From the IMG/VR virus record IMGVR_UViG_3300048591_000346, positions 1 through 41,969 of that record: a DNA stretch of 41,969 nt. One strand, written 5' to 3'. Position numbers and translations under genes: made by a program. Each line of letters begins with the position of its first letter. Position 1 is the first letter of the stretch. The notes under the pieces were generated by a model that was not told the origin of the DNA, searched no databases, and worked only from the letters and a program-made list of their open reading frames with translations. Of this stretch, positions 32,433 through 41,969 are shown one piece after another. This stretch comes from a virus.

Positions 32433-33683
32433 CTATGTCCTCACCGCTTCCCGGTATTTGGCTTCCGGACGGCCGTAACTGGCAGCCACCGCGCCAACTG
32501 GGGTCGAGGCGCCGGGATCGGCGCCAAGTAGAAACTCGCGCCTGCTCCCATCCGGCTCCAGGCTGCCGTTGACCACGTGCAGATACCGATCCGCACCGAC
32601 CTGATAGAGACTCCGCGGCCGGCCGTGTGACGTGTCCTCCGAGATCAGCTTTGCGCCGAGATCCGTCGCAAACCGCTCCGGCCCATGCACATGACCGTAG
32701 ATCTCGATCGCAACGCGCCGGTGCTCCGCGTTGCTGATGGACGTGATCTGTTGCGCGGTCCGCTCATGCCGCAGATCGATGATCCCGGCGGGCACTCTCA
32801 GGCCACGCCACGCATAGATGCTGTAGCCGTCCCGCCAGCGCACCGCGGGGCCGTCATCAGCATGCAAGCGTCGTTGATGATCGAAACAGATGCGTTCGGG
32901 CCGGTCGGAAACGAAGGCGACATCTGGATACAGATAGGCCACTCCGCAGCTCGCAGCATAGGCGCGATACGCGTCGAACTTCGTGGCGGTGTCCTCCCGA
33001 TACGTCACACCGATCTGCCGGCCGAAATCGTAGAAAGCCAACCAGAAATTGTCCCATCCTCCGATGAGCCACGTGTCCTGATGCAACTCGCTATTCGCGA
33101 GCTGGCCCCTGAGCTGGTCCACGAGCTGGTCCACGAGCTGGTCCCAGAGCTGGCCCCCGAGCTGGTCCCAGAGCTGGTCCCTGAGCTGGCCCCCGAGCTG
33201 GTCCCTGAGCTGGTCCCTGAGCTGGCCCCCGAGCTGGCCCCCGAGCTGGTCCCAGAGCTGGTCCCTGAGCTGGCCCCCGAGCTGGTCCCTGAGCTGGTCC
33301 ACGAGCTGGTCCCTGAGCTGGCCCCCGAGCTGGTCCCAGAGCTGGCCCCCGAGCTGGTCCCAGAGCTGGCCCCCGAGCTGGTCCCAGAGCTGGTCCCTGA
33401 GCTGGCCCCTGAGCTGGTCCCAGAGCTGGTCCCTGAGCTGGTCCCCGAGCTGGCCCTCGCCTACTCGCATCAGCCCGCGGGCCATCAGGCACTGCATCGG
33501 GCTTTGCAGCAGGATCGTGTATTTCGGCGCCGCCAATCCGGCGGTTGTGTAGAGGCGGTTGACGGCGTCACGCGCCGCCGCCTCGTCAATGCGATCGGTG
33601 CGCAGCGCATCACGCCGCTGCGCCTCGCGGTAGTCGCGCATTTGCGCCCATTGCTCTGCGCTGAGTGTCTCGATGCGTGCCAT
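32433..33683 (-). CDS. DUF6745-like protein with 30 Gln-Leu tetrapeptide repeats
   Basis: A 416-residue protein from ATG 33683, which overlaps the upstream stop; the longer frame from 33719 is rejected. Residues about 70-195 consist of 30 four-residue units of the form [Arg/Trp/Gly/Val]-[Asp/Gly]-Gln-Leu, encoded by 12-base repeats. After it (about 200-416) comes a domain with Trp-Asp-Asn-Phe-Trp and Arg-Trp-Arg-Asp-Gly-Tyr-Ser-Ile-Tyr-Ala-Trp-Arg-Gly, as in DUF6745 proteins, many of which carry variants of such repeats. Function of the family unknown. Confidence 0.75.
   Translation of the reverse strand: MARIETLSAEQWAQMRDYREAQRRDALRTDRIDEAAARDAVNRLYTTAGLAAPKYTILLQSPMQCLMARGLMRVGEGQLGDQLRDQLWDQLRGQLRDQLWDQLGGQLWDQLGGQLWDQLGGQLRDQLVDQLRDQLGGQLRDQLWDQLGGQLGGQLRDQLRDQLGGQLRDQLWDQLGGQLWDQLVDQLVDQLRGQLANSELHQDTWLIGGWDNFWLAFYDFGRQIGVTYREDTATKFDAYRAYAASCGVAYLYPDVAFVSDRPERICFDHQRRLHADDGPAVRWRDGYSIYAWRGLRVPAGIIDLRHERTAQQITSISNAEHRRVAIEIYGHVHGPERFATDLGAKLISEDTSHGRPRSLYQVGADRYLHVVNGSLEPDGSRREFLLGADPGASTPVGAVAASYGRPEAKYREAVRT
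33091..33470. repeat. 12-base tandem repeat tract in the DUF6745-like gene
   Basis: About 30 copies of a 12-base unit GAGCTGGTCCC(T/A) and variants, reading plus strand, about 370 bases. Variation is confined to positions that change the first and second residue of the encoded tetrapeptide. Copies are near identical, so length change by slippage or recombination is likely. Confidence 0.9.
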
Positions 33684-34144
33684 TAGTCCGCGACCCTCCG
33701 AGCTTCGCCAGCGTCCCATTCCATTTGCCCGCCGACATAAAAACGTCCCGGCGGAATGCGGATTGCATCGTGCTCGTCATGGCGCAGGACAACGGGACCA
33801 CCCTCGACCTCTAGGATGCCGATGGCGAGACGGTCAGTCGTGAGTTCTCCGGCGCGCACCAGCGCCTGTACGGTCGCCGCGGCTCGATAGAGCTTTGCGG
33901 TCGCGACAGGCGCCATGGCCTCCATGTCGCGCGCCAGGCCGTCGTCGCGGAAGGCGACGGTCTGCGGAACGAGCCGGATAGCGTGGTGATGACCTGTGAT
34001 TTCTCCCTCCGCCAAGATCAGCCGGTTTTCGCGCGGCGTGATCTCATCGCTGCGATCTGTGGCAATGTGGTCGGGAACGCGGAACAAGATCACGTCGCCT
34101 TGCAGGGCGTCGCCGTCGGCAGGGTTCCAATCGTGGATTTTCAT
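33683..34144 (-). CDS. conserved protein with His-His-His motif, partner of the DUF6745 gene
   Basis: A 153-residue protein; ATG 34144 follows AAGGA, and the stop overlaps the next start. The centre (Ala-Glu-Gly-Glu-Ile-Thr-Gly-His-His-His-Ala-Ile-Arg) and the later Leu-Arg-His-Asp-Glu-His-Asp-Ala-Ile segment with Pro-Pro-Gly-Arg-Phe-Tyr-Val are typical of a small cupin-like beta protein often found next to DUF6745 genes. His and Glu clusters suggest metal binding. Function unknown. Confidence 0.7.
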   Translation of the reverse strand: MKIHDWNPADGDALQGDVILFRVPDHIATDRSDEITPRENRLILAEGEITGHHHAIRLVPQTVAFRDDGLARDMEAMAPVATAKLYRAAATVQALVRAGELTTDRLAIGILEVEGGPVVLRHDEHDAIRIPPGRFYVGGQMEWDAGEARRVAD

Positions 34145-36047: not shown

Positions 36048-37035
36048 TGGGAATCTCCCGCTGTGCAATGAGGGTGATAACGGCCTTGGCCGTATCCTTG
36101 GCGATGCCACCGCGAACAAACGCGTCGAGCGCAGCCTTGTTGATCTTGGCGCGGTGCGCCTTGTCGGCTTCACGACGGGCAGCCGCAGCGCGCTCTTGTT
36201 CGGCCTCCCGCTTTGCCTTGGCTTCCGCCTCGAGCGCGCGGCGCTCCGCTGCCTCGGCTTGCAGCTTGAGCTCAAGCTCTCGCTTCTCTGCGGCGTCACG
36301 CTCGCGCTTGGCGGCGTCATCGGCTGCCTTGCGTTCGGCTTCGGCCTTTGCTTCGGCGTCGCGCTTTGCTTTTTCAGCAGCCTCGCGAGCAATCTGTTCG
36401 TCGCGTTCTTTCTGCTTGCGCTCGGCCTCGGCAGCGCGGAGGCGTGCCAGTTCCGCTTGTTCTGCCTCTCGCTGTTCGGCGCGTTTCAGAGCGTCCCGTA
36501 GCGCCGCCAGGGCCTTATCCTTCAGCTCGGCAGCGGCGCTGACGTATTCGGCGTAGAACTGCTCGGTGATGGCCTCGCGCTCAACCTTGCCAAGGCGCTC
36601 CCGGATCAATGCAGCGGGTCGCTCTGATTGATCGTCGATGACGGCCTGGAATTCTGCCAGCGATGATTTAATCCGCTCGACTCGCTCGTCCTCCGCTGCT
36701 TCCCATGCCGTAAGCGGAGCGCGGACTTCGTCCTTCCATTTGTCCAGCGTGTCACGGATGAGCTTTCGCGTGGCGTCGATCTTCTTCGGAATTTCCTTCT
36801 GCTGATCGGCCAGCTTCCTTCCGGCATCGTCCAGATAGGTCTTGGCGCGAGCGACCTTGTACGCCATCGAGGCGACTGCCTTGCGGCCCTTGTCGCTGCT
36901 GATATCGGGCTCAAAGGCGTCGATTTCTTTGCGGATGCGGTCAAGCAGAGGATCTATCGCTGCTGGCGTCGTGAACAGTTGCAGAGCGCTGCCGGGCTCG
37001 ATCGCCACCAGATCGCTGACGGACACATCGTTCAT
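36028..37035 (-). CDS. long coiled-coil protein between annealer and exonuclease
   Basis: A 335-residue protein. The first 105 residues are a helical domain (Asp-Ile-Ser-Ser-Asp-Lys-Gly-Arg-Lys-Ala ... Asp-Thr-Leu-Asp-Lys-Trp-Lys-Asp). The middle is a very long Ala/Glu/Lys/Arg coiled coil (about 180-300). The end has a short helical motif (Asp-Ala-Phe-Val-Arg-Gly-Gly). Such proteins stand between recombinase and exonuclease genes in many phages. It may hold the pair together; function unproven. Confidence 0.75.
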   Translation of the reverse strand: MNDVSVSDLVAIEPGSALQLFTTPAAIDPLLDRIRKEIDAFEPDISSDKGRKAVASMAYKVARAKTYLDDAGRKLADQQKEIPKKIDATRKLIRDTLDKWKDEVRAPLTAWEAAEDERVERIKSSLAEFQAVIDDQSERPAALIRERLGKVEREAITEQFYAEYVSAAAELKDKALAALRDALKRAEQREAEQAELARLRAAEAERKQKERDEQIAREAAEKAKRDAEAKAEAERKAADDAAKRERDAAEKRELELKLQAEAAERRALEAEAKAKREAEQERAAAARREADKAHRAKINKAALDAFVRGGIAKDTAKAVITLIAQREIPNVSIHY

Positions 37036-37862
37036 TGCACTCTCCGCTTCTTGGCCGACGCCTCGATCGCCTGCATGGCGCTGTCAAACTTCGAGGCCGG
37101 AAGGTCCGTGATCTTCTGGAGCTTGTAGTAGGCGCAGAAGCGGGGAAGCTCGGCGCCGGTGCGCTCGATGGCGGCCTTGATCTGCTCGGCCTGCTCGTCG
37201 GTGATCGTTTCAGCGTCAGTGCCGCCGGCCGAGCGCGCGTCATCGTCGTGCGACGACGCCAGGCCAAGCGCAAGTTTCAGGGTGTACCGCTGCAAATACG
37301 TGGTGGCCGATCCGATCGCCTGGATGGCGTTCTTGTTGCCGCTGTGGTCCTCGGCAGCTTCGAGCGTCGTCTCCTCGGAATGGCCGCGAACGTGCGACAG
37401 AATGCAGGTTACGCTGAGCTTGCTGCCGGCCTGCGCTGATCGGAAACGATAGGCCAGTCCATTCTCTTTGAGCACAGGATCAACCACGGCAGCAATGCCG
37501 GCGAAATCCTCGTGCTGATAACTTGTGCGTCCCTTGGCGCTTGCGTAGTCAACCGTGCGGTTCTTGGAGATCGTGCCGAACTGACCCTTCGCCTTTGCGA
37601 CAGCATCGTTGAATGCCATGACGGCATGCTGACGTTCGACGCGCTCTCTCATGAGCATCAGGCGCTCGAACTTCTCGACGTCCACGCTCGTATCCCGAGC
37701 CGCCCGCTCGATCATGCTGATGAGCGCGGCGCTTTCGCTGGCTACCGCAGTACCAGCACTACCGCCGCCGTTACCGTGATGCACGATGCCGCCAGCACCG
37801 TCACCATTATGACCAGAATTTCCCTGAATTTCTGCGATTGCATTCTGCCCCTGCATATCCAT
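37032..37862 (-). CDS. erf: ERF-family single-strand annealing protein
   Basis: A 276-residue protein. After a Gly/Asn/His-rich disordered first 40 residues comes the ERF core: Asn-Asp-Ala-Val-Ala-Lys-Ala-Lys; Tyr-Gln-His-Glu-Asp; Gly-Ser-Ala-Thr-Thr-Tyr-Leu-Gln-Arg-Tyr at 184-193; and Ser-His-Asp-Asp-Asp-Ala at 204-209, both hallmarks of the family. The C-terminal third is helical. It anneals complementary single strands for recombination or circularisation of the injected genome. P22 also uses Erf. Confidence 0.93.
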   Translation of the reverse strand: MDMQGQNAIAEIQGNSGHNGDGAGGIVHHGNGGGSAGTAVASESAALISMIERAARDTSVDVEKFERLMLMRERVERQHAVMAFNDAVAKAKGQFGTISKNRTVDYASAKGRTSYQHEDFAGIAAVVDPVLKENGLAYRFRSAQAGSKLSVTCILSHVRGHSEETTLEAAEDHSGNKNAIQAIGSATTYLQRYTLKLALGLASSHDDDARSAGGTDAETITDEQAEQIKAAIERTGAELPRFCAYYKLQKITDLPASKFDSAMQAIEASAKKRRVQ

Positions 37863-39119: not shown

Positions 39120-39488
39120 TCACCCGTCCCCGGCCAGGGACCCGTCCCCGTTCCCGTTCCCGTTCCCGTACCCGTTCCCGTCCCCGTTCCCGTCCCCGTT
39201 CCCGTCCCCGTTCCCGTCCCCGTTCCCGTCCCCGTCCCCGTACCCGTCCCCGTTCCCGTACCCGTACCCGTTCCCGTACCCGTTCCCGTTCCCGTACCCG
39301 TACCCGTTCCCGTCCCCGTTCCCGTACCCGTTCCCGTTCCCGTTCCCGTACCCGTTCCCGTCCCCGTCCCCGTACCCGTTCCCGTACCCGTTCCCGTACC
39401 CGTACCCGTTCCCGTTCCCGTACCCGTACCCGTTCCCGTTCCCGTTCCCGTTCCCGTTCCCGTACCCGTTCCCTTGTTCCGCGCTCAT
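39120..39488 (-). CDS. Gly-X repeat protein (X = Asn, Tyr or Asp)
   Basis: A 122-residue protein. After Met-Ser-Ala-Glu-Gln come 55 consecutive Gly-X dipeptides, X being Asn (28), Tyr (16) or Asp (11) and nothing else, then a short tail (Gly-Ser-Leu-Ala-Gly-Asp-Gly). Codons are GGG alternating with (A/T/G)AC. The start is in an ATGA overlap with the upstream DUF6948-like gene, so it is probably translated. Composition resembles low-complexity, prion-like or phase-separating sequences. No family known to me. Six frames are open here, but only this one has the coupled start. Confidence 0.7.
   Translation of the reverse strand: MSAEQGNGYGNGNGNGNGNGYGYGNGNGYGYGNGYGNGYGDGDGNGYGNGNGNGYGNGDGNGYGYGNGNGYGNGYGYGNGDGYGDGDGNGDGNGDGNGDGNGDGNGYGNGNGNGDGSLAGDG
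39139..39474. repeat. hexanucleotide tandem repeat CCCGT(T/A/C)
   Basis: About 55 copies of a 6-base unit CCCGTN, N being T, A or C but never G, in mixed order. On the coding (minus) strand N is the first base of the variable codon. It keeps all six frames open. Such tracts are prone to length change. Confidence 0.95.
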
Positions 39489-39796
39489 GCTGCGATCGCC
39501 TCCGCGCCGGTGATGCTGGCCTTGGCCTCGTCCGTCGTGGACAGGACCTCACAGACCTCGAGCACAATTGCTGTGCTGACAGGTTCAGCGATCCGACAGT
39601 CCTTGAGATGCTTGGGATGGAGGCCGGCAGCGGCTACGCCACTGAGGCTGACGCCCTTGGCGGCCCACCAGCGCCAGAGCCGGCGCGCGTCGGTGAGGGT
39701 GACGGTATTGCCGTCCATGGTCTGGAGCGTTCCCGCCCAGCAGCCGGACGGGCTCGAACGCACGATCACGTATTGTCCGATAAGAGAGTTGGTCAT
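39485..39796 (-). CDS. DUF6948-like phage protein
   Basis: A 103-residue protein and the first gene of the leftward transcript. ATG 39796 follows GGGGAACAC. The sequence has a Tyr-Val-Ile-Val-Arg-Ser strand, Val-Trp/Cys-Trp-Ala-Gly-Thr-Leu, and Arg-Arg-Leu-Trp-Arg-Trp-Trp-Ala-Ala-Lys, then Ser-Leu-Ser-Gly-Val-Ala, all features of the small beta-barrel-like DUF6948 family common in phages. Role unknown; first early protein, perhaps host take-over. Confidence 0.75.
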   Translation of the reverse strand: MTNSLIGQYVIVRSSPSGCWAGTLQTMDGNTVTLTDARRLWRWWAAKGVSLSGVAAAGLHPKHLKDCRIAEPVSTAIVLEVCEVLSTTDEAKASITGAEAIAA

Positions 39797-39931: not shown

Positions 39932-39960
39932 AGATTATTCACAACTGGTGTATTCGTCAA
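39932..39960 (-). promoter_or_regulatory. leftward early promoter PL with operator O1 in the spacer
   Basis: TTGACG (39960-39955, minus strand) and TAATCT (39937-39932) are 17 bases apart. Operator O1 (39938-39952; TACAC-N5-GTGAA on the minus strand) fills the spacer, so a bound repressor would block polymerase. Transcription would start near 39925 and run toward int. Confidence 0.8.
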
Positions 39961-39969
39961 GGAATAAAA

Positions 39970-39984
39970 TACACCAAAAGTGAA
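39970..39984 (+). promoter_or_regulatory. operator O2, TACAC-N5-GTGAA
   Basis: A second copy of the operator, centred 32 bases (three helical turns) from O1, just upstream of the PL -35 box. The spacing suggests cooperative binding of repressor dimers on one face of the DNA. Confidence 0.65.
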
Positions 39985-40051
39985 CGATGTGGCAGCGCGA
40001 CAACACGCCTTGACGAATGGCGCGCCATCAACACAACTTTATGAAGTTAGG

Positions 40052-40354
40052 TCAGGAGGATGACGACAGATGCTCAGATCGTGCATCAAGCATGGCGTCT
40101 ATTGCGCGCCCCATGCCGTGAGGCAAATCGCCGGTGTCGCCCCGAAAAATGAAGTCCAACGTCAGCCGATGGGCATCGCATATGGCGATTGCGACGAGGA
40201 TGGTCGGAGCTAGTTTAGCCCGCCTGCCGAACTCGGCTTGATTCAGCCCTAGGACGTCGCGCACGGCCCTGAGCCGCTGGCCGACTGCCTTTTGCAGCCT
40301 GACCTCGGCTTCCTTCCTGGCCGGTGATTTGGTTCGCCCGGAAACTTTTCCCAT
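40052..40354 (-). CDS. CI-like repressor with apparent loss of the recognition helix
   Basis: A 100-residue XRE-type protein. Residues 26-51 (Gln-Arg-Leu-Arg-Ala-Val-Arg-Asp-Val-Leu-Gly-Leu-Asn-Gln-Ala-Glu-Phe) form helices 1 and 2 of the HTH. After Ala-Lys-Leu-Ala-Pro-Thr it jumps directly to Ile-Leu-Val-Ala-Ile-Ala-Ile-Cys-Asp-Ala-His-Arg, the helix after the HTH, so about 15 residues with helix 3 seem missing in frame. The rest (Leu-Thr-Leu-Asp-Phe-Ile-Phe-Arg-Gly-Asp) is standard for the family. It is divergent from the Cro-like gene across operators O3 and O4. Confidence 0.75.
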   Translation of the reverse strand: MGKVSGRTKSPARKEAEVRLQKAVGQRLRAVRDVLGLNQAEFGRRAKLAPTILVAIAICDAHRLTLDFIFRGDTGDLPHGMGRAIDAMLDARSEHLSSSS

Positions 40355-40367
40355 GAGCGGCTTTTAC

Positions 40368-40382
40368 TACACCAAGTGTGAA
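40368..40382 (+). promoter_or_regulatory. operator O3, TACAC-N5-GTGAA
   Basis: A third operator, beginning 14 bases upstream of the repressor start. It likely controls repressor transcription. Confidence 0.65.
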
Positions 40383-40409
40383 TAACGTAAGCCGTTTGTG
40401 AGATGTCGC

Positions 40410-40438
40410 TTGACCGCTACACGAGGAGTGAATAATAT
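40410..40438 (+). promoter_or_regulatory. rightward early promoter PR with operator O4
   Basis: TTGACC (40410-40415) and TAATAT (40433-40438) with exactly 17 bases between. Operator O4 (TACAC-N5-GTGAA, 40418-40432) fills the spacer as in PL. The start site should be about 40444-40445, at the ATG of the Cro-like gene, giving a leaderless transcript. Confidence 0.85.
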
Positions 40439-40444
40439 CACGTC

Positions 40445-40678
40445 ATGGTGTACGATATCAACACGCTTGATGAGCTGATCGCCGCCCTAGATGGACCTGT
40501 CAAAGGGGCTCAATGGGCCGGGGCTGGCGCCTCGGCGATCTGCAACTGGAAGGCGCGCGGTTACGTTCCGCCATCGCGTCATCTGCCATTGCTGATCGAG
40601 CTGAAGCGGCGAGGCAAATCCATCAATCCCGCATTGTTTGAGCTTTCCGAAGAGGACTTCGATCTGCTTCGCGCTTGA
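40445..40678 (+). CDS. Cro-like regulator
   Basis: A 77-residue protein, first on the rightward transcript. It has a helix-turn-helix-like stretch (Ala-Gln-Trp-Ala-Gly-Ala-Gly-Ala-Ser-Ala-Ile-Cys-Asn-Trp-Lys-Ala-Arg-Gly) followed by Val-Pro-Pro-Ser-Arg-His-Leu-Pro-Leu, as in Cro/YdaS-type proteins. It starts right after PR with no room for a ribosome site. It likely binds the same operators and promotes lytic growth. Confidence 0.75.
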   Translation: MVYDINTLDELIAALDGPVKGAQWAGAGASAICNWKARGYVPPSRHLPLLIELKRRGKSINPALFELSEEDFDLLRA

Positions 40679-40694: not shown

Positions 40695-40752
40695 ATCCCG
40701 CCTAGTTCCGGCTAGTTCCAGCCGAGTTCCACCGAGTTCCAGTCGCGTTTCA
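40695..40752 (-). repeat. phased GGAAC box array B
   Basis: On the plus strand GTTCC/GTTTC start at 40705, 40715, 40726, 40736 and 40747, with an in-phase ATCCC at 40695: steps 10, 10, 11, 10, 11. On the minus strand these read TGGAACTCGG and variants. It lies directly after the Cro-like gene. Confidence 0.65.
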
Positions 40753-40775
40753 CGTGCGTATCGGGCTGTTCCGCC

Positions 40776-40954: not shown

Positions 40955-41344
40955 ATGAGTTTCCTGTGGGACGACACGGCAATCGACCAGCTCAAGGGCC
41001 TGCACCGGCTCGGCCACTCGGCCAGTGAGATCGGCAGGGTGATGGGCACCAGCAAGAACTCGATCGTCGGCAAACTGCGCCGCCTGGGCGTGTCGGCCAA
41101 GCCGCAGGTCGAGAAGGTAGCGCTCCGGCGCCCGCCACCGATGCCGGTGGAGCCGGTGAAGGTGATGGCGATCAAGCGCAGCAGGATCGTCACATTCGCC
41201 GATCTGGAGGCCAACCAGTGCCGCTGGCCCATCGGGGACCCCAGGGCGCCTGACTTCGGCTTCTGCGGCCAGGAGCGCCTTCCAGGCCGTCCCTACTGCA
41301 TCGCCTGCACGGATAGGTCCATTGCCCGGAAAGAGGCCGCATGA
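40955..41344 (+). CDS. gcrA: GcrA-family transcription regulator
   Basis: A 129-residue protein from ATG 40955 behind GGGGG. The N-terminus (Trp-Asp-Asp-Thr-Ala-Ile-Asp-Gln-Leu-Lys-Gly-Leu; Gly-His-Ser-Ala-Ser-Glu-Ile-Gly; Ser-Lys-Asn-Ser-Ile-Val-Gly-Lys) is the GcrA DNA-binding domain. The C-terminus (Asn-Gln-Cys-Arg-Trp-Pro-Ile-Gly-Asp-Pro; Phe-Cys-Gly; Pro-Tyr-Cys) is the sigma70-binding zinc-like end. In Caulobacter GcrA activates promoters with methylated GANTC. A complete viral copy may redirect host transcription. It is shorter than host GcrA. Confidence 0.9.
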   Translation: MSFLWDDTAIDQLKGLHRLGHSASEIGRVMGTSKNSIVGKLRRLGVSAKPQVEKVALRRPPPMPVEPVKVMAIKRSRIVTFADLEANQCRWPIGDPRAPDFGFCGQERLPGRPYCIACTDRSIARKEAA

Positions 41345-41490: not shown

Positions 41491-41969
41491 ATGAGCGGGC
41501 ATCTGACATCGCTCCTGTGGGAGGTCGATTTTCCTACGAGCACGCAGAAGCTGCTGATGCTGCGGCTTGCGGACTACGCCGACGATGATGGGCGCGGAAT
41601 CTATCCGTCGATCCCCGAGGTGGCGCGCCAGATCGGATCGTCTGAGCGGCAAATACAATACGCGCTCAAGGCACTTGAGGCCGTGAACCTGATCGACCGC
41701 GTGGCCTTTGGCGGGACTGGTCCGAAACGCACCAATGTCTGGACGATTAACGTCGATCTTGTCGCGAAACTTGCCCTCCAAGAACTCGTTCTCAACGGAA
41801 CTCACAGTGAGCTGGAGGCTGTGGAAAACGAGGGTGCAATAATTGCGCCCCGCACCCTTGCAAGGGTGCAATCTCGGATCAAAAGGGTGCAATCAGCGAC
41901 CGATAAGGGTGCAACTGATTGCACCCAAGCTACCAAAGAACCCAATTTAGAACCCATAGCGCGGGCGCG
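41491..41969 (+). CDS. replication-type winged-helix protein, cut by the window end
   Basis: A partial gene, 159 codons present. Residues 1-75 (Leu-Leu-Trp-Glu-Val-Asp-Phe; Met-Leu-Arg-Leu-Ala-Asp-Tyr-Ala-Asp; Ile-Pro-Glu-Val-Ala-Arg-Gln-Ile-Gly-Ser-Ser-Glu-Arg-Gln-Ile-Gln-Tyr-Ala-Leu) are a clear winged helix of the phage replication-initiator type. A Gln/Lys/Ala-rich linker with repeated Arg-Val-Gln segments follows. It probably continues in the fragment at 3-221. The downstream genes of the rightward operon are then those of the left end. Confidence 0.75.
   Translation, partial: MSGHLTSLLWEVDFPTSTQKLLMLRLADYADDDGRGIYPSIPEVARQIGSSERQIQYALKALEAVNLIDRVAFGGTGPKRTNVWTINVDLVAKLALQELVLNGTHSELEAVENEGAIIAPRTLARVQSRIKRVQSATDKGATDCTQATKEPNLEPIARA

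Follow-up and report, generated by a model that had tools for sequence, protein, structure and literature searches.

We consider it likely that the window, by which we mean the whole 41,969-nucleotide stretch of viral DNA analyzed here, belongs to a temperate phage whose virion is P22-like and carries its lambda-like immunity region, and that the CI-like repressor has lost the recognition helix, making the phage a clear-type mutant. The gene order is lambda-type and runs from the promoter pL through the CI-like gene (40052-40354) and the promoter pR to the Cro-like gene (40445-40678). An earlier note on this DNA had proposed an immunity region whose two divergent promoters contain operators; comparison supports that proposal, and CI-like and Cro-like genes flank the control elements. 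The layout belongs to the lambda-type CI/Cro family, of which the window's copy, judged by its sequence, is not a working member. The predicted control elements are as follows.

39932..39960, minus strand: promoter pL, TTGACG-AATACACCAGTTGTGAA-TAATCT, with a 17-bp spacer filled by oL1; same geometry in the related contigs L005 and L006
39938..39952, minus strand: operator oL1, TACACCAGTTGTGAA; exact match, position conserved in L005 and L006
39970..39984, plus strand: operator oL2, upstream of pL, TACACCAAAAGTGAA; exact match, distance of 32 bp to oL1 kept in the window, L005 and L006
40368..40382, plus strand: operator before the CI start, oR3-like by position, TACACCAAGTGTGAA; exact match
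40410..40438, plus strand: promoter pR, TTGACC-GCTACACGAGGAGTGAA-TAATAT, with a 17-bp spacer filled by oR1; same geometry in L005 and L006
40418..40432, plus strand: operator oR1, TACACGAGGAGTGAA; exact match

A pattern search of the whole 41,969-base record for exact TACAC-N5-GTGAA returns four sites, at 39938 (-), 39970 (+), 40368 (+) and 40418 (+), which are the four that the earlier note had listed and the only ones in the record; the reversed pattern, used as a control, occurs nowhere. A first-order Markov simulation gives a chance expectation of 0.013 sites for the window and 0.00015 for a 507-base stretch, although the motif was picked after the fact, which makes this expectation the weaker proof. 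For the same reason, the stronger and independent proof is the presence of the same motif at the same places in L005 and L006. Within the window, oL1 and oL2 lie 32 bp apart, and oR1 and the oR3-like site 50 bp apart.

Two of the sites fill the 17-base spacers of a leftward and a rightward promoter, with the sequences that had been reported. Their orientation is alike in pL and pR, TACAC pointing toward the -35 box and GTGAA adjoining the -10 box. The description of these promoters as strong or ideal is overstated: the hexamers agree with the consensus at 8 of 12 positions in pL and 9 of 12 in pR, which is good but not ideal, and a general promoter scan detected pR and left pL under its cut-off. 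The promoter pRM was not located, the hexamers around 40368 being too weak to name.

L005 and L006 are two virus contigs with homologous immunity regions, encoding CI and Cro homologues of ~45-65% identity. The pair of sites at pL is spaced exactly 32 bp in the window and in both relatives, the distal site of L006 having one mismatch. At pR, the window has its two sites 50 bp apart; L005 spaces them by 51 bp, with one mismatch in the second, and L006 possesses only a half-site in place of the full second operator. Among the papers searched, none describes a switch of this CI/Cro family. Pattern searches of viral contigs also returned look-alikes, which were rejected. The composite pattern TTGACNNNTACACNNNNNGTGAATA gave four matches, of which only the L006 contig is real; the others (L015-L017) sit among unrelated genes and appear fortuitous. 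The pL-pair pattern matched L005, L006 and L091, the last being an unrelated phage with different HTH genes. At 5040-5086 of L091, a TTCAC-N5-GTGAA / TACAC-N5-GTGAA pair is found 32 bp apart between divergent HTH genes, a case of either chance or convergence.

The repressor gene is defined by an in-frame loss.

40052..40354, minus strand: CI-like repressor gene, 100 aa, without helix 3 (family alignment, HTH_3 test, structure model)
40203..40204, minus strand: junction of an in-frame 39-nt deletion in the CI-like gene (DNA and protein alignment against L005 and L006)

Relative to L006 and L005, the window CI is missing 13 residues, the equivalent of NTYNMIENGAKLP, which constitute helix 3, the recognition helix. 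Of the 18 family members aligned, Pfam HTH_3 recognizes 17, missing just the window CI; the family profile as such matches P22 C2 and the 434 repressor. Among 99 distinct family CIs, none has the deletion; three imperfect alignments (L043, L079 and L196), read by eye, represent a single-residue gap, an insertion and a partial match. The AlphaFold2 model of the window CI places helices at residues 11-35, 39-46, 52-62, 66-71 and 79-98, with nothing at the place of helix 3, and has no significant match in the PDB. A substitute for CI in the form of another HTH_3 protein was considered and rejected, as none is encoded elsewhere in the record. The recognition helix, present in every comparable relative, is missing from the window's repressor, and the earlier reading of the region as a complete two-promoter switch is not supported; as predicted from its sequence, this CI should not read the operators.

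Several features of the remnant nevertheless speak against a clear-type phage. Outside the gap, the window CI is about as conserved as expected and its frame is still open, unlike a long-dead gene, so that either the deletion happened recently or what is left of the protein still has a use. Also counting against this explanation are the failure to locate pRM and the lack of a full second pR-side operator in L006. The open frame, the conservation of the rest of the protein and the intact operators would fit a switch that is complete and working, in which the shortened CI retains binding, perhaps by way of a different helix or a partner protein. We regard this as very unlikely, given that the 13 missing residues make up the fold's recognition helix, that the HTH_3 match is gone and that the same deletion is absent from all the distinct relatives. 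Another use would be in mixed dimers: the shortened CI, whose frame and C-terminal half are conserved after the deletion, could be kept because it pairs with intact CI made by a related prophage already resident and so weakens that prophage's immunity. This idea is highly improbable in our view, since the 99 distinct CIs offer no second example and a recent loss without new function accounts for the same facts. Finally, the record comes from one assembly and the deletion may therefore not represent the population, which could carry an intact CI; the deletion would then be confined to a minority of the phages or be an artifact of assembly. Sequencing errors do not usually take the form of a clean 39-nt in-frame loss in a conserved gene, however, and the junction shows no obvious repeat to explain a collapse; we judge this account unlikely. 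The reading we retain is that of a probable clear-type mutant whose own repressor has lost its recognition helix.

In contrast to the repressor, the Cro-like gene is intact.

40445..40678, plus strand: Cro-like gene, 77 aa, intact (family alignment, model, fold match; AUG 6 nt after the pR -10 box)

The Cro model has all helices, and its fold matches the Cro proteins of N15, Xfaso1 and P22. P22_Cro is found in 12 of 17 Cro family members, a scoring that does not include the window's own Cro, and the window Cro used alone as query found no viral relative. Two features bear on the cro transcript. Firstly, the AUG is close to the pR -10 box, as it is across the family, where 23 of 25 dyad-bearing promoters directed at cro place it 4-8 nt past the -10 box. 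Secondly, a count over 62 loci, made without a promoter model, has its TTGA[CGT] maximum at 30-41 nt upstream of the divergent start. On account of both, the cro mRNA is predicted to be leaderless, with the transcript from pR starting at or next to the AUG. In PY54, leaderless mRNAs of both cro and cI have been shown by RACE (PMC4488713).

The surroundings include genes typed by Pfam and PHROGs on both sides of the control region.

37032..37862, minus strand: Erf-like ssDNA annealing protein, pL operon (Pfam and PHROGs)
39485..39796, minus strand: first gene of the pL operon, DUF6948 (Pfam; homologue at the same place in L006)
40955..41344, plus strand: GcrA-like gene, pR operon (Pfam)
41491..41969, plus strand: O-like replication initiation gene, truncated by the record end (PHROGs)

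The leftward operon from pL comprises the DUF6948 gene, small genes, the Erf gene and further genes. The window also encodes a P22-like portal, a P22-like coat protein and a terminase, and 30476-31663 matches the integrase family PF00589 weakly (E 1.4e-05, 25.4 bits, just under the curated cut-off of 27.1). The GcrA-like cell-cycle regulator directly follows cro in the window (40955-41344, plus strand), and a similar protein follows cro in L006 (1875-2471, minus strand). Repeats are found at several places. Immediately 3' of cro, 40696-40753 is a cluster of short direct repeats, TCCAGCCGAGTTCCACCGAGT. Within the pL operon, the gene at 39120-39488 (minus strand) consists almost wholly of the 12-bp tandem repeat CCCGTACCCGTT and encodes a GNGY-type glycine repeat; other glycine-dipeptide repeats occupy its place in L006 (3901-4323) and L005 (from ~3870), so this low-complexity gene is positionally conserved. 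A second repeat protein at 32433-33719 (minus strand) contains ~30 copies of a 12-bp unit of the LRDQLGGQLWDQL type (array 33098-33453) fused to a DUF6745 domain. Units of AGGGTGCAAT are repeated within the O-like gene (41840-41930) and are possibly origin iterons, as in lambda O. The left end of the record (1-200) opens with a frame that resembles the C-terminal part of the right-end replication gene in a different phase; together with the truncation of that gene at 41969, this suggests that the record may be a nearly complete circle minus a few bases.

From these elements we propose the following mechanism. The four 15-bp sites would be operators for the CI-like and Cro-like HTH proteins, and a CI or Cro dimer on oL1 or oR1 would cover the promoter spacer as far as the edge of the -10 box, excluding RNA polymerase from pL and pR. 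The fixed 32-bp spacing suggests that oL2 may assist through cooperation, and Cro on the oR3-like site before CI would shut CI off. The promoter pL is expected to drive the recombination operon, and pR to drive cro, the GcrA-like gene and the replication gene. With a CI unable to read DNA, only Cro could restrain the two promoters, leading to lytic growth in which lysogeny would not be established; the virus probably cannot keep itself silent in its host. Because its operators are intact, the phage should remain open to repression by a related prophage that shares them, through that prophage's CI. As helix 3 of CI is lost, and Cro and the operators are intact, the phage should be clear-type yet sensitive to a relative's repressor.

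The operator arrangement extends across the family. A perfect 5-5-5 dyad lies within a promoter spacer upstream of CI at 20 of 72 family loci, compared with 4 of 577 control stretches (Fisher p 4e-17, rising to 6e-11 when near-duplicates picked out by eye are collapsed). For 38 of the 99 distinct CIs, a pR predicted to be leaderless is present with a gap of 3-8 nt, chosen without reference to symmetry, and 35 of these 38 have a dyad of at least 4/5; where several promoters fit one locus, the one with the best dyad is listed, a slight bias toward symmetry.

That an operator code could be read from sequence was also part of the earlier note, and the family carries this beyond what was claimed, as a CI helix-3 residue tracks the half-site. 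Across the 35 loci with such a dyad, glutamine at helix-3 position 5 is associated with TTCA (11/12), asparagine with TCCA (5/8, plus one ACCA), lysine with TGGA or GGGA (10/11), arginine with TGGA (1/1) and methionine, the residue of the window's group, with TACA/TTCA (2/2). Between CI pairs less than 45% identical, operator bases 2-3 agree in 69% of cases when the position-5 residue is shared and in 9% otherwise. Position 5 is the best of nine helix positions, and none of 2000 label shuffles reached its agreement. Of the loci retrieved once the rule had been seen (from L094 on), many obey it, but some of them share clades, so that the effect of common ancestry is reduced and not eliminated. 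The helix of L085 had aligned poorly and was adjusted manually. In our own alignment, position 5 of xxYN[Q]YExG corresponds to Gln33 of the 434 repressor, a known specificity residue. We lean somewhat toward the view that this one CI helix-3 residue sets the operator half-site, with glutamine giving TTCA, asparagine TCCA, lysine or arginine TGGA, and methionine TACA/TTCA.

The switch itself is textbook lambda-type, and what the analysis adds is the damaged repressor, the rule linking spacer and AUG, and the rule linking helix 3 and half-site. A natural phage that has all its operators and has lost the recognition helix of its repressor would be a clean case of lysogeny loss. If the residue/half-site rule is causal, the immunity groups of uncultured temperate phages would be readable from sequence, and the window would represent a mutant that arose naturally by losing the reader residue while keeping its operators and Cro. 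Should binding tests bear the rule out, superinfection immunity would become predictable from metagenomes. The rule that an operator sits in the spacer, with the cro AUG just past the -10 box, could likewise enable automatic operator finding in uncultured phages.

Comparison with the lambda record reveals the same gene order, divergent promoters flanking cI, and oL1 and oR1 at the equivalent positions within the two promoters. Lambda has three sites per side, 20-24 bp apart, whereas the window has two per side, 32 and 50 bp apart. The window also differs from lambda in a CI of 100 aa without the cleavable C-terminal domain, in the absence of rex genes, in a cro mRNA predicted to be leaderless and in the loss of helix 3 from CI. 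P22 C2 and the 434 repressor, as well as the Cro proteins of P22, Xfaso1 and N15, are matched by the window's family profiles; compared with P22 C2 and the 434 repressor, the window's CI family consists of the DNA-binding domain only, and the window CI additionally lacks the recognition helix. Among the PY54/N15 immB systems, the window Cro is closest in fold to N15 Cro. PY54 has an operator, OR3, upstream of its repressor gene (PMC4488713), and its Cro binds one 16-bp site only, in contrast to the four predicted sites of the window, two of which lie inside promoter spacers. A deletion in the repressor gene of mycobacteriophage D29 makes that phage obligately lytic (PMC6550527). Although the immunity systems of D29 and the window are unrelated, both represent natural repressor-gene deletions: D29 has lost the 5' end of the gene, whereas the window has lost only the recognition helix and retains an open frame.
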